Shown here one piece after another: positions 48,408 to 53,595 of a DNA stretch of 64,000 nt (within the stretch, counting starts at the first letter, position 1; each line of letters begins with the position of its first letter). The DNA is from Tenacibaculum piscium (lineage in GTDB: Bacteria; Bacteroidota; Bacteroidia; Flavobacteriales; Flavobacteriaceae): contig NZ_JAJGWT010000001.1 in NCBI RefSeq assembly GCF_021390715.1, positions 67,839-131,838 on the forward strand. The letters are read 5' to 3'. The notes beneath the pieces are model-generated. The model was not told the DNA's origin, did no database searches, and saw nothing but the letters and a program-made list of their open reading frames with translations. The translations under genes were made by a program, and so were the position numbers.

Positions 48408-48433
48408 AAAAAATATATTTTAACTATAAAAAT

Positions 48434-48460
48434 GCATCTTTTTAAGGTTTTTAACGTCTA
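48434..48460 (+). promoter_or_regulatory. Candidate ECF-type promoter of the metallothionein/sigZ unit
   Basis: GCATC (48434-48438), 16 bases, CGTCTA (48455-48460). A GTC-type -10 with 16-base spacing is the usual ECF sigma layout, and transcription would begin about 20 bases before the metallothionein ATG. No TAnnTTTG box is seen. Could be recognised by SigZ itself, which is encoded 200 bases downstream. Confidence 0.45.
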
Positions 48461-48486
48461 TTATATGAACTTTAAAACCAAAAATT

Positions 48487-48591
48487 ATGAACCATAAAAA
48501 TCAATGTACGTGTAATTGCGAAGGATGTAAAACAGGAAATTGCTTAAATTGTACCTGTGAAAATTGTACTTGTAATCATTGTAATTGCTAA
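48487..48591 (+). CDS. Metallothionein-like 34-residue Cys-rich peptide
   Basis: 34 residues with 11 cysteines (positions 7, 9, 11, 14, 19, 22, 24, 27, 29, 32, 34). They follow CxC and CxxC spacing, for example CTCNCEGCK and CENCTCNHCNC, and the rest is small and polar (Asn, Thr, Lys, Glu). Two His (3 and 31) could add ligands. This is the composition of a metallothionein that wraps a few soft metal ions (Cu, Zn, Cd). No signal peptide. It stands 81 bases before a SigZ-type sigma factor on the same strand and behind a candidate ECF promoter. Known bacterial metallothioneins (SmtA, MymT) are not obvious relatives. Confidence 0.75.
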   Translation: MNHKNQCTCNCEGCKTGNCLNCTCENCTCNHCNC

Positions 48592-48622
48592 AATTTACTA
48601 GCATACAAAATGTATAAAATAT

Positions 48623-48660
48623 AACAGTAATTATTTTTCATTAAATAATTACTGTTTTTA
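48623..48660 (+). terminator. Hairpin between the metallothionein gene and sigZ
   Basis: AACAGTAATTATTT (48623-48636), loop TTCATT, AAATAATTACTGTT (48643-48656), then TTTA: 14-bp perfect stem and T run. It ends only 16 bases before the sigZ ATG, so sigZ must be reached by read-through or have a promoter overlapping the hairpin. Confidence 0.8.
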
Positions 48661-48672
48661 TTTCAGAAAAAA

Positions 48673-49260
48673 ATGACCAAAAAACAAGCCAAAATAGCAA
48701 CCGTAACATCAGAATTAACAACCAATTATATTTGGAAAAAATATAGTGACGACCTTAAATATTTTATCTTAAGTAACGTTAAAAATGCCAGCAATACTGA
48801 CGATATCCTACAAGATACGTTCATTAAAATACACACCAAAATAAACACCCTAAAAGATACTACAAAACTCAAATCATGGGTTTTTAGCATTGCCCGAAAT
48901 TCAATACTCGATTATTTTAAAAATAACAATAAAACATTCGAATTTGCCAATTTCGAAACCTCTACAAATATAAAATCCGCAGAAATACACACCGCTAAAG
49001 ATTGTTTAGAAGGTATCTTAAAAAATCTACCTAAAAAATATCGAATCCCTTTACTTTTATCAGATATACAAGGCGTAAAACAACAAGAAATTGCCGATAC
49101 TTTACAACAAAGTTTATCAACAACAAAATCGCAAATTCAAAGAGGTCGCAAAATGATAACGAAAGGTTTTATCGATTGTTGCGGATTTGTAACAAACGAA
49201 AATGGCAAATTAGTGGGCGAAATTAAAGATAAAAAAGATTGTAAAATCTGTAATTTATAA
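48673..49260 (+). CDS. sigZ: ECF-type sigma factor of the SigZ group
   Basis: 195 residues. Region 2 (about 12-85, YILSNVKNASNTDDILQDTFIKIHTKI...LKSWVFSIARNSILDYF) and region 4 (about 105-160, LPKKYRIPLLLSDIQGVKQQEIADTLQQSLSTTKSQIQRGRKMI) are present. After them comes a Cys-bearing tail: Cys169-Cys170 and Cys190-x-x-Cys193, which could bind metal or sense redox in place of an anti-sigma factor; none is encoded nearby. Directs RNA polymerase to its own promoters. Lies behind the metallothionein-like gene and a strong hairpin, so regulation by read-through is likely. Confidence 0.83.
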   Translation: MTKKQAKIATVTSELTTNYIWKKYSDDLKYFILSNVKNASNTDDILQDTFIKIHTKINTLKDTTKLKSWVFSIARNSILDYFKNNNKTFEFANFETSTNIKSAEIHTAKDCLEGILKNLPKKYRIPLLLSDIQGVKQQEIADTLQQSLSTTKSQIQRGRKMITKGFIDCCGFVTNENGKLVGEIKDKKDCKICNL

Positions 49261-49855: not shown

Positions 49856-52800
49856 TTAACTATTCTCTACAATCGCAATTTCAGCATCGGTTAAATTGTA
49901 TAATTTATAAACCATCGCATCAATTTCTGTATCGGTTTGATTTATTTGTGTTTTTAACGCCTGAGCTTCGGCTTTTTTTACCATAAAAACATCCATCCAA
50001 TCCATTTCATCTAGTTTTGTAAGTACGGGAATTATTGGCTGTTCGTTTTTTACAAGTTCTTTATTATTGCTTTTTATCGCCTTGTTGAGTTCTTTTATAA
50101 AATCGCCAAATTCTAAATCGTGCCAGTTTTGAAGCTTTTTTGATAACTTTTCTAATTGAAATTTTTGCTTTAGATAGTTTTGGAAATTGTTAGATGTTAA
50201 ATTATTTTTATTTGATAAATTAATTAATTTTTCTGATAAGACAGATAATTCTAAATCTATATTGTTAAAATTATTTGAAATTGGAATTGTTGTTATTTTA
50301 TCTCTTCTAAAATCGTAAAAACCACCTTGTAATGTTGTACAAATATTTTTCAAATAAAAGAATACAAGTTTAGAATTTAAAAAAGCTAATAATGATTTTG
50401 AGTCAGTAGAAATAAAGAAATTATTATCTAACAAAAAAACCTCTCCTTTTTCATCAAGATAAAAATTACCTCTATTATTTATTCTTGGATATATAATTTT
50501 AGGCTGTTGCATTTCTTCATAGTAAGCACAAGCTCTCAAATTCCAATAATTAACACCTTGGTCATATCTTTTTATTAATACATCTTTATAATTATCTAAC
50601 TCTTCTTTTATATCTGGAAAATCATTAAGAATATCTAAATCATATCCTGTAAATAATAAATATTTATCTTGAAAATTAAATGTATTTCTTTTTACTTCTT
50701 TACCTGTAGCTAAAACCTTTATTTGTTCTTTATTTTTAAAGTTTTTAGTTATTAATTCTTCTCGCTTTTCTGAATCAATTGTAAAAGCTTCATTTCTCCC
50801 TGTTGTTAAACCCCTAAATACTTTTTTATCAACAAAATCGCCTAAACTTATAGAATCTTTTTTTATTTTTTCTAAAAGTTTAAATGAAGTAATATCAATA
50901 AAATTCCACATTTCATCAGTTAAAGAATCACAAGAAACTAAATGTTTTTTATTTTCTAAAGTGATAATTGGGTCGTCCGTATTATCTCTTTTATTAATTT
51001 CAGAAAACAAAAATGTTTTTGCTTTATTATCCGATTTTTTATTTAAAATATAAATAATTGGATACGTAGTTGCATCGGCAAAAACAGGATAATCATCAAA
51101 ATCTAACAATAATTCTAAATTAGCATCTTCCTTCATAACCTTTCTTATATTTTTCCCATAAGTGGCTTTTAGAAATTTATTAGGCAGAATAAATGAAAAC
51201 AAACCTTTTTCATTCATTAAATTAATACCTTTTTCAATAAAATAAGTATATAAATCGGCTACACTATTATAGCATTTATAATTTTTTTCTAAATAAGGTT
51301 TTATCTCTTTAAATAATTCTTGTCTAACATACGGCGGATTTCCAATAATCACATCAAAACCGCCATTTTCAAATATTTGAGGAAACTCATTTTCCCATTT
51401 AAAGGCTTTATCTCTTGCAACGGTTTTACTATCAATTAAAGAATTTCCACATTTAATATTGCTATTTAAGTTGTTTAATTTTCGTCTAGGTTGTGCGGTT
51501 CTTAGCCAGAGAGAAAGTTTCGCAATTTCTACGGATTCTTCGTTTAAATCGACTCCAAAAATATTATTTTCAAGGATTTTATTTTCAATATCAGGAAATA
51601 CAAAACCACCGCCTAAAAGTTTGGTTTTTAGTTCGTCAATATAGGTGTGTTCTTTAATTAAAAAATCTAAAGCTTGGTTTAAAAATGCTCCCGAACCACA
51701 AGCGGGGTCGCAAATAGTCAGTTTTAATAACCAATCTCGATAAACATCTAAGAACGAAACTAATTTAATAATCGTTGTTTTATTTCTGTTTTTTCGTCCT
51801 TTAAAATAGTCATCTTCTTTGATACCAAGTTCTGTTTTCTTTTCGGTACAAAGTTTACCAACGGTATTATCTACAATATATTTTGTGATGTATTTTGGCG
51901 TATAAAAAACGCCATCTTTTTTACGTTTACTTGTTTGTTTATCAAAATTTGAACCTTGAATTTCAGCATTTACACTTTCAATTTCATTTAATGAATTTTC
52001 AAAAATATGTCCTAAAATATTTACATCAACTTGGCTATCAAAATCATATTCCGATAATTTTTTAGTATGTTTATACAGTAAAGTATCATCTAAAATAAGC
52101 GAATCTAAAACGGCATCAGGTTTAAAAAGTCCGCCATTATAAGCGAAAATTTCGGCTTTTTTGTCTGTTCCTTCTCTACCAGTATCTAAATATTTAAAAT
52201 ACAGTTTAAAGCGATTATATAACGGAACTTCAACATCTAAATCTTTTAATTTATCCCAATTTTCAAGGATTTGAAGTGTTGAATTTGGCGGTAATAAACC
52301 TCTATCTTCGGCAAAGAAAATAAACAGAAATCTATCAATTAATTTTTGCGATTTTTTAAACAGACTAAGTTTGATATTTTTATTAATGCTATCAATATTT
52401 TCTTTTTCCTGTTCGGTTCTAAAAACAGGATTCTTTAAATTCTGTTTTATTAAATCTCTATATAATTCTCTTTTAAAAAGCGAATAATCGTTATAAAATT
52501 CTTTCGTAATTTGTTCTTCTTTAACTACGGATGCTTCTTTAATTTTTAAAGGAATATTATTTATGATATTATCTTTATGCAAGCACAAATACAAGAATTG
52601 AAACTGTTCTTTAGTAAGTTCAAAAAGATTAAATTCTTCAAATTCGGTGGCATCGTTTATATAGAATCGTAATTTTTCAAAATTGGAAGTAATTACATAA
52701 ACACAGCCTTTCTGATTTGCTTTATAATCAAAAGCTTGTTTTCTGATGCTTTCTAAATCCTTGGTTTTCGTGCCTTTTAATTCGATAACGGCAATAGCAA

Positions 52801-53086
52801 TATTATCGTTTAAAATTGCGCCATCTGCTTTTCGTGCATTTGTTTGATTTTTATATTCGGCAACTAGGTTAAAATCGGCATTTGGTTTTAGGGTATAATC
52901 TAAAATAGTAACAAATAATTCCGTTAAAAAAATACCTTGATATTCTTCTTCTTTTGAGCTTCTGATATTTTCTTGTATGGTAGGATTTAGAAAATACTTT
53001 GTGTATTTTTTGTAGGCTTTTTCTACAATTTCTTTTTCTTGAAGTTTGAGATGTTTTTTTAATACGGATTTTTGAAATAACGACAT
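49856..53086 (-). CDS. Type IIG restriction-modification enzyme (single-chain nuclease plus m6A methylase)
   Basis: 1076 residues. N-terminal PD-(D/E)xK-like nuclease: ADGAILNDNIAIAVIELKGTK, with the acidic and ExK residues near 90-100. A helical connector precedes an N6-adenine methylase: motif I TICDPACGSGAFLNQAL (about 455) and motif IV IIGNPPYVRQE (about 580). The C-terminal third (about 740-1030) is a TaqI-like target-recognition domain followed by a helical bundle. This is the Eco57I-type architecture, cutting at a distance from an asymmetric site. PglX of BREX has a similar methylase, but no other BREX genes are near, and the N-terminal nuclease argues for type IIG. Frame looks intact. 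Repeats border its promoter side. Confidence 0.82.
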   Translation of the reverse strand: MSLFQKSVLKKHLKLQEKEIVEKAYKKYTKYFLNPTIQENIRSSKEEEYQGIFLTELFVTILDYTLKPNADFNLVAEYKNQTNARKADGAILNDNIAIAVIELKGTKTKDLESIRKQAFDYKANQKGCVYVITSNFEKLRFYINDATEFEEFNLFELTKEQFQFLYLCLHKDNIINNIPLKIKEASVVKEEQITKEFYNDYSLFKRELYRDLIKQNLKNPVFRTEQEKENIDSINKNIKLSLFKKSQKLIDRFLFIFFAEDRGLLPPNSTLQILENWDKLKDLDVEVPLYNRFKLYFKYLDTGREGTDKKAEIFAYNGGLFKPDAVLDSLILDDTLLYKHTKKLSEYDFDSQVDVNILGHIFENSLNEIESVNAEIQGSNFDKQTSKRKKDGVFYTPKYITKYIVDNTVGKLCTEKKTELGIKEDDYFKGRKNRNKTTIIKLVSFLDVYRDWLLKLTICDPACGSGAFLNQALDFLIKEHTYIDELKTKLLGGGFVFPDIENKILENNIFGVDLNEESVEIAKLSLWLRTAQPRRKLNNLNSNIKCGNSLIDSKTVARDKAFKWENEFPQIFENGGFDVIIGNPPYVRQELFKEIKPYLEKNYKCYNSVADLYTYFIEKGINLMNEKGLFSFILPNKFLKATYGKNIRKVMKEDANLELLLDFDDYPVFADATTYPIIYILNKKSDNKAKTFLFSEINKRDNTDDPIITLENKKHLVSCDSLTDEMWNFIDITSFKLLEKIKKDSISLGDFVDKKVFRGLTTGRNEAFTIDSEKREELITKNFKNKEQIKVLATGKEVKRNTFNFQDKYLLFTGYDLDILNDFPDIKEELDNYKDVLIKRYDQGVNYWNLRACAYYEEMQQPKIIYPRINNRGNFYLDEKGEVFLLDNNFFISTDSKSLLAFLNSKLVFFYLKNICTTLQGGFYDFRRDKITTIPISNNFNNIDLELSVLSEKLINLSNKNNLTSNNFQNYLKQKFQLEKLSKKLQNWHDLEFGDFIKELNKAIKSNNKELVKNEQPIIPVLTKLDEMDWMDVFMVKKAEAQALKTQINQTDTEIDAMVYKLYNLTDAEIAIVENS

Positions 53087-53259
53087 TTATAGCTTTTTTT
53101 ATTGCTGATAAATTTACTTTAAAAAAGTTGTATCGAAAATTTTTTTAGTGTTGAAAATGATAAAAATAAAATAATGATTTTTTCAATAATAAAGTCGATG
53201 AAAAATATGGGCGAATAAATTTCCAAAAAAGGGCAGATATATTTACAAAAAGGATAGAC

Positions 53260-53512
53260 GGATTTCAAAAAAAAAGTGGGGCAGACACATAGGTCTGCCC
53301 CTACATCGATAATCCGTAGGGGCGAACCTATGTGTTCGCCCAACCTATGTGTTCGCCCAACCTATGTATTCGCCCAATCTGTGTGTTTGCAAAACAGAGC
53401 AGATGGATTTCAAAAAAAAAGTGGGGGCAGACACATAGGTCTGCCCCTACATTGATAATCCGTAGGGGCGAACCTATGTGTTCGCCCAACCTATGTATTC
53501 GCCCAACATATG
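53260..53512. repeat. Palindromic intergenic repeat block, two large copies
   Basis: Two direct copies, about 145 bases apart, of a unit made of GGATTTCAAAAAAAAAGTG, the hairpin GGGGCAGAC-acata-GGTCTGCCCC, AATCCGTAG, the hairpin GGGCGAAC-ctatgt-GTTCGCCC and further CAACCTATGT(G/A)TTCGCC copies. The GTAGGGGCGAACC... word is known to me as a widespread bacterial intergenic palindrome. Fills the 540-base spacer between the type IIG gene and the tRNA cluster. Confidence 0.8.
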
Positions 53513-53595
53513 TATTTACCCAATCTATCTATTTAAAACTAAGAAACAACAAAATTGCTGACACATTTGCTGACACAGAAAACATTTAAACAACA

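Follow-up and report, generated by a model that had tools for sequence, protein, structure and literature searches.

What could be the role of a very short cysteine-rich peptide encoded just upstream of an ECF sigma factor gene? The question is posed by a locus of Tenacibaculum piscium contained in a 64,000-nt stretch of DNA (hereafter the window), which belongs to an assembly of 2.65 Mb in 37 contigs. A preliminary description of the window had proposed that the two genes form a metal-sensing unit. Our comparison favours, with a probability of roughly three in four, the reading that the two genes form an autoregulated metal-defence operon, in which a metal-sensing SigZ-like ECF factor makes its own metallothionein. 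The gene pair, its promoter element, the intervening hairpin, the invariant cysteines and the genes that stand behind the element in relatives are established by sequence comparison.

Both open reading frames were confirmed as first described. The peptide gene (48487-48591, + strand) encodes 34 aa, 11 of them Cys in CxC/CxxC spacing, and its stop codon lies 81 nt from the start of the SigZ-like sigma factor gene (48673-49260, + strand; 195 aa). By this composition, typical of small conserved metallothioneins, the peptide is metallothionein-like, with a putative metal-thiolate cluster. No known metallothionein family model matches it: we found no family in Pfam for any of the 21 members scanned, no model in NCBIfam for the window peptide, and no relative among the PDB sequences. 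An absence of nearby anti-sigma genes had been noted previously, and a family scan of the four adjacent window genes (a TPR protein, an outer-membrane-like protein, an HbpS-like protein and an Eco57I-type enzyme) likewise detected none. At 30 loci the neighbours are known from ORF listings alone, and the recurrent neighbour noticed near the operon is a DUF3703 gene only. We also considered the peptide as a RiPP precursor and rejected this reading, as no recurrent modification enzyme was noticed on inspection of these ORF listings.

Conservation of the pair was followed in several sets of genomes. Among 58 genomes of the genus group, 41 (the window's own included) possess an orthologue of the sigma factor at 56-70% identity, the next-best sequence standing at 38%, and each of the 41 has the peptide gene 5' of it. 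The best 30 of these loci, with the window among them, invariably contain a same-strand upstream peptide of 32-37 aa with 10-12 Cys (at least 11 in 29 of the 30), which abuts the sigma gene in three cases and lies 699 nt away in one; the other 11 genomes with an orthologue have the peptide in 11 of 11. A further set of 80 loci (the named loci), kept from 130 relatives and including Tenacibaculum, Polaribacter, Lutibacter, Lacinutrix and Winogradskyella, has the peptide at every locus. These collections are not disjoint: a named locus identical to it exists for 13 of the first 30 loci, and the 30 and the 80 together yield 90 distinct peptide sequences. The pair is thus carried by many marine flavobacteria. 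The earlier expectation that the peptide and its cysteines would be preserved beside sigZ in related genomes is therefore borne out in both the 41 and the 80.

The peptide sequences themselves bear the marks of a functional protein. Ten of the 11 Cys columns are invariant among 21 peptides and the remaining one is nearly so; Cys spacing and the C-terminus are conserved. The ratio pN/pS equals 0.26 in 79 of the 80 named copies (L146, which has lost the last Cys, was dropped), indicating purifying selection, and exactly 11 Cys are present in 75 of these 79 across the 31 codons compared. This purifying selection, together with the conserved Cys columns, argues that the reading frame is not a product of chance.

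Searching with the peptide profile alone gives matches in 33 of 199 genomes of the family, or 32 of 198 genera. The sigma gene follows directly downstream in 25 of 30 such loci, nearly all from different genera, with the sigma frame broken in one of them (L262). Four loci (L268, L278, L281 and L282) have the peptide without an adjoining SigZ, and the remaining exception, L280, is an eroded peptide copy. The strict form of the promoter element discussed below is present at 23 of the 30 loci, all of them within the 25 with a sigma gene. Some individual loci merit a separate remark. At L268 the SigZ-less peptide lies about 1 kb downstream of what appears by eye to be a CDF-type exporter gene. At L085 (G004:C22:7790-9579) the intact SigZ match is followed about 1 kb further on by another that is partial and contains stops. 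At L037 (G057) SigZ is followed by an ORF that looks MerT-like by eye and by a GDCCVxC domain protein (NF041374), neighbours that may point to mercury or some other thiophilic metal.

How distinctive is the sigma factor itself? The top family matches of the protein are the two SigZ models of NCBIfam, TIGR02959 and NF007215, which upholds its initial assignment to SigZ-type ECF factors, but the scores fall below both curated cut-offs (157.7 against 168.65 and 171.3 against 212 bits), and we therefore call it SigZ-like. The four tail cysteines, 169, 170, 190 and 193, are positioned as originally given: C169-C170 (codons 49177-49182, +) come directly after sigma region 4, and C190 and C193 (49240-49251, +) form a terminal CxxC. 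The preliminary description overlooked a fifth, C111 (codon 49003-49005, +), located in the linker that joins the two sigma domains. All five are invariant in the 34 aligned sigma sequences, and CC together with CxxC is found in all 41 genus-group copies, which were retrieved by whole-protein search; the named loci were collected with a pattern containing CC, so that this pair is favoured there by the search itself. What did not survive is the notion that the Cys tail is peculiar to this gene. C111, C169 and C170 are common to relatives in Priestia, Vibrio and Hymenobacter, and the cysteines therefore belong for the most part to the SigZ family at large, although their treatment as SigZ-defining is our own reading and not the definition used by the libraries. 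Since Cys tails are also present in SigZ relatives near which no peptide was seen (in the phylum-wide survey below, 16 of 30 loci), the tail alone is no proof of a circuit. An AlphaFold model recovered the two sigma domains (pTM 0.43; tail pLDDT about 62-82) with the tail left unresolved and Cys distances not obtainable from it, while a Foldseek search with the model returned ordinary ECF factors that superpose poorly over the whole chain; given the weak tail model and this poor superposition, neither method informs the question of a sensor.

The promoter-like element was correctly recognized as GCATC-N16-CGTCTA placed before the peptide gene. This SigZ-type element, TGCATCTTTTT ... GTCTA (48433-48460, +), has TGCATC starting at 48433 and GTCTA at 48456, and stands 54 nt 5' of the peptide ATG. 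Its spacing is fixed, with 23 nt from the start of TGCATCT to GTCT in all 30 genus-group loci, and the strict pattern fits 74 of the 80 named loci. The stretch after the -10 part, TTATATGAAC..TTAAAA (48461-48486, +), is conserved in all 30 loci as well, every one having a T at +6 and an A at both +12 and +13 (counting from the G of GTC); it presumably represents the start site and 5' leader. The pattern TGCATCTTTTN{10,14}GTCTA, derived from the operon loci themselves, occurs 61 times in the 58 genomes against 10 times for its backwards control.

Does the element accompany the sigma factor? Of the 41 genomes with a sigma orthologue, 40 have a site at E<5e-7 under a sequence-only promoter model built from the 30 loci (R1), whereas none of the 17 genus-group genomes without one has a site at E<=0.001. 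As 30 of the 41 genomes supplied the rows of R1, the independent part of this result is 10 of 11, and the sole miss, G055, has a 24-nt version of the element before its peptide. In the window's own genome there is a single strong site (E 5.8e-13, itself a row of the model), the next having E 0.02. Applied alone to the 199 family genomes, R1 gives 22 sites at E<=1e-4, and 21 of them precede a peptide-SigZ operon, in which the peptide is of the window type 16 times (window included) and of other design five times (L333-L337); nothing recognisable lies behind the remaining one (L338). The 19 weaker sites between E 1e-4 and 0.003 are, as far as they were read, mixed: one belongs to a type B operon (L342), L343 and some others lie at peptides, and a further group (L340, L341, L344-L346) falls within ORFs or ahead of unrelated genes. 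The element thus tracks peptide-SigZ operons across genomes, which supports the original suggestion that it is likely the sigma factor's own promoter; SigZ itself would presumably read it.

The element was also expected to be shared with other putative targets of the sigma factor, and relatives of Tenacibaculum piscium provide several. A DUF3703 gene (one copy identified by Pfam at 1.5e-38, the others by motif) lies just 5' of the peptide in 30 of the 78 named loci whose sequence extends far enough; in 27 of these 30 the element precedes it at fixed spacing. A gene of the CDF superfamily, above the superfamily cut-off and nearest among named models to ZitB, though below the cut-off of that model, occurs in 19 of the 58 genus-group genomes (E<=1e-60), 18 of which have the sigma orthologue. 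In 16 of these 18 genomes the CDF gene is preceded by the element, 15 sites being scored by script and one (L204) read from its sequence context; the score of the site at L206 is matched by the best of its 200 shuffles. The CDF genes of G032 and G057, both with a sigma orthologue, lack the element, as does that of G053, a genome without the sigma gene. Single genomes have the element before a ZntA-like P-type ATPase of the Cd family (L071) and before a CusA/CzcA transporter identified by pattern alone (L082). The 20 non-operon pattern sites that we read comprise six before CDF genes, one each before the ATPase, the CzcA gene, a TonB-receptor-like gene (L049) and an unrelated membrane protein (L073), three before a CPXCG protein and seven in or across ORFs; the last (L040, L063, L069, L070, L075, L080 and L081) were judged to be chance occurrences. 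In the three genomes concerned (L071 at site 712, L087 and L088) a good TGCATCTTTTT..GTCTA site lies 130 nt before the gene for the CPXCG Cys-rich protein, possibly a further target.

Between the peptide and the sigma gene, the perfect 14-bp hairpin before the sigZ start is present as initially described (48623-48656, +; arms 48623-48636 and 48643-48656, loop TTCATT), and a T-rich run follows it. The 81-nt gap folds with a z-score of -4.9 relative to 200 dinucleotide shuffles. Among the named loci, 66 of 80 have a gap of 40-200 nt, and the fold is stable (z <= -2) in 63 of these 66, with a median of -5.5 at 60 shuffles each; the gap is shorter than 40 nt in 13 loci and measures 699 nt in one. 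We discarded the idea of a hairpin conserved as a sequence, for the stems look unrelated between genomes and only the stable fold is kept. The hairpin is a candidate attenuator between the two genes, which would keep the level of the sigma factor below that of the peptide.

What circuit could these parts compose? We infer metal binding, activation rather than inhibition, a response to Zn or Cd rather than Cu, attenuation and buffering as follows. The on-board metal sensor of the sigma factor would consist of C169-C170 and C190-x2-C193 in the short C-terminal tail, probably with the linker C111 as a part. A rise of a thiophilic metal in the cytoplasm, most likely of Zn or Cd, would load the sensor and render the sigma factor competent. 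RNA polymerase would then start at TGCATCTTTTT-N12-GTCTA, ahead of the peptide gene, transcribing peptide and sigZ together in a positive feedback. Most transcripts would end or be processed at the hairpin, yielding far more peptide than sigma factor, and the accumulating peptide would soak up the metal, strip the sensor and switch the circuit off, a negative feedback. In relatives the element would additionally turn on the CDF cation exporter, the DUF3703 protein and, in some cases, pumps of the ZntA or CzcA type. The metal-sensing unit of the preliminary description thus holds in its coupling of genes, tail cysteines, likely own promoter and hairpin, but no second target was found in its own genome: the R1 scan detected none besides the operon there, and no CDF gene reaches E<=1e-60.

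Parallels to parts of this arrangement are known. CorE and CorE2 of Myxococcus xanthus (formerly ECF44, now ECF238) are ECF factors with no anti-sigma factor, with metal-resistance targets, a Cys-rich C-terminal extension and Cys in the linker, all of which are shared by the window sigma, whose metal-resistance targets are putative and known from relatives; its own Cys-rich extension after region 4 is present in the 34 aligned sequences and the 41 genus-group copies alike. CorE2 is described as activated by Cd and Zn and as having a CC pair in the C-terminal domain, the second Cys of which sets specificity (PMC9023288, PMC8999054), and both CorE and CorE2 as requiring a CxC linker (PMC8999054, PMC9023288). 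The Cys spacing is different, CC-x19-CxxC in the window sigma and CxxC-x7-CxC in CorE (181, 184, 192 and 194), and the linker contains a single Cys (CC in type B) in place of CxC. The spacing being unlike that of CorE, we do not file the window sigma as a CorE factor, although by analogy it may work like one. It further differs in its phylum and in having a metallothionein-like partner gene as neighbour; metallothionein is a word that the CorE paper does not use. The groups ECF287 and ECF288 also have Cys-rich C-terminal extensions and are suggested to work in a CorE-like manner (PMC8999054). OrbS of Burkholderia cenocepacia is described as another on-board metal sensor built from C-terminal cysteines (PMC9023288), differing in that it responds to Fe(II), is inhibited and controls siderophore genes. 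MymT of Mycobacterium tuberculosis is a metallothionein in the regulon of an autoregulating metal sensor, RicR (PMC10141476), which is a CsoR-type regulator and not a sigma factor; we found no relationship of MymT to the window peptide and no family match. Members of the SigZ family proper (TIGR02959, NF007215) are found in Bacillus, Priestia and Vibrio; the Priestia copy has no CxxC, and no Cys-rich peptide is annotated at the Priestia and Vibrio SigZ loci. To our knowledge, no function has been established for SigZ. A metallothionein paired with SigZ is not described in the literature searched, which mostly excluded subscription papers, and the pairing looks like an undescribed self-regulating metal-defence circuit.

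The arrangement extends beyond the genus group. Relatives of the sigma factor at E<=1e-25 occur in 34 of 296 Bacteroidota genomes, and 14 of the 30 loci read have a peptide, in four designs: the window type (four loci, window included), type B upstream (six), type C downstream (three) and type D downstream (one). The element stands before the first gene in all 14, including the 10 of other design, with scores of 12-16 out of 16 that at most 6 of 300 shuffles equal. At the 16 loci without a peptide, where the match start was used in place of the true start codon, three score 13-14 (L300, L312 and L313) and 13 score 8-10. A peptide accompanies 14 of 18 SigZ proteins with the linker Cys, a single residue (KDCL) in the window type and CC in type B, and none of the 12 without it (hypergeometric 2e-5, kinship ignored). 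In a tree, types A and B join together and types C and D join elsewhere, in both cases without starred support (92/86 and 96/58); with these groupings separate, the peptide linkage is placed in two parts of the family. A module class may be involved, with no fewer than four peptide designs that look unrelated to one another, two orders of the genes and one conserved promoter type. That the SigZ branch with the linker Cys comprises general Bacteroidota modules of a sigma factor with its own metallothionein, in which the sigma factor would sense metal, the peptide would set the threshold and shut-off, and metal homeostasis would be the function of the family, seems to us slightly more probable than its opposite. 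Some divergent members have neighbours of other kinds. At L312 and L313 a divergent SigZ with the element and no Cys-rich peptide has a gene upstream that appears by eye SelD-like. At L300 an ORF that appears by eye ArsC-like lies about 1.7 kb downstream of a divergent SigZ with the element. On plasmid pSMS7 of Arenibacter algicola (L316, 4977-7666) a SigZ-like gene is followed by thioredoxin-family, permease and oxidoreductase genes.

Which signal does the circuit respond to? CxC-rich peptides often bind Cu(I), which would suit Cu(I) or Ag as the signal of the same circuit, as would the response of CorE to Cu. Another thiophilic metal could be read from the MerT-like ORF (by eye) and GDCCVxC protein directly after one SigZ, and from the seemingly arsenic- or selenium-related genes near divergent family members. 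The commonest distant gene behind the element, however, is the CDF exporter, with ZitB as its nearest model (below cut-off), the element is also carried by the Cd-family P-type ATPase, and the tail CC pair resembles that of CorE2, reported as Cd/Zn-responsive; a signal other than Zn or Cd appears possible but is the weaker choice. The cysteines might, alternatively, sense thiol oxidation or electrophiles as a redox switch rather than metal, since CC and CxxC are capable of forming disulphides, the tail and linker cysteines are invariant, and a divergent relative adjoins a thioredoxin-family gene. Yet those genes behind the element that can be recognised encode metal exporters or the metallothionein-like peptide, with no thiol-redox gene among them, and we regard a redox switch as rather improbable.

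The peptide could also owe its position to a role other than buffering. If it were a direct partner of SigZ, either a small metal-controlled anti-sigma factor or a donor of metal to the tail, its near-obligate pairing with SigZ in Flavobacteriaceae loci, the occurrence of at least four designs in the phylum and the co-occurrence of peptide and linker Cys would be readily understood. The peptide is found, however, beside a CDF gene without SigZ as well (L268), and its designs differ strongly while the SigZ cysteines stay, a pattern more in keeping with generic binding of metal than with a specific interface; we consider a direct partnership unlikely. The order of Cys-rich ORF, hairpin with T run and sigZ recalls, finally, a leader peptide at whose Cys codons ribosome stalling would control the hairpin and hence sigZ. 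Against this, the protein is under purifying selection with its Cys spacing and C-terminus kept, the 13 gaps shorter than 40 nt leave scant room for a hairpin, the peptide exists elsewhere without SigZ, and in types C and D its gene lies downstream of sigZ. Mainly on account of the type C and D order and of protein-level conservation beyond the Cys codons, we reject leader-peptide attenuation as highly improbable.

Read as an autoregulated metal-defence operon, the locus gives SigZ-type sigma factors a concrete, testable role and supplies a candidate one-protein metal sensor together with its probable recognition sequence and targets; the metallothionein-like peptide family is new to the library models searched. 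The operon could be a clean case for coupled positive and negative feedback, and because sensor, buffer and promoter form one short operon, a compact metal biosensor is conceivable. Near the operon, the window also contains a large Eco57I/MmeI-type restriction-modification enzyme on the minus strand (49856-53086). Beyond it, the interval 53119-53589 shows near-identical Cys-containing repeats in the translations of both strands (GEPMCSPN..., GEHIGSPLRI...), which suggests a short direct-repeat array.
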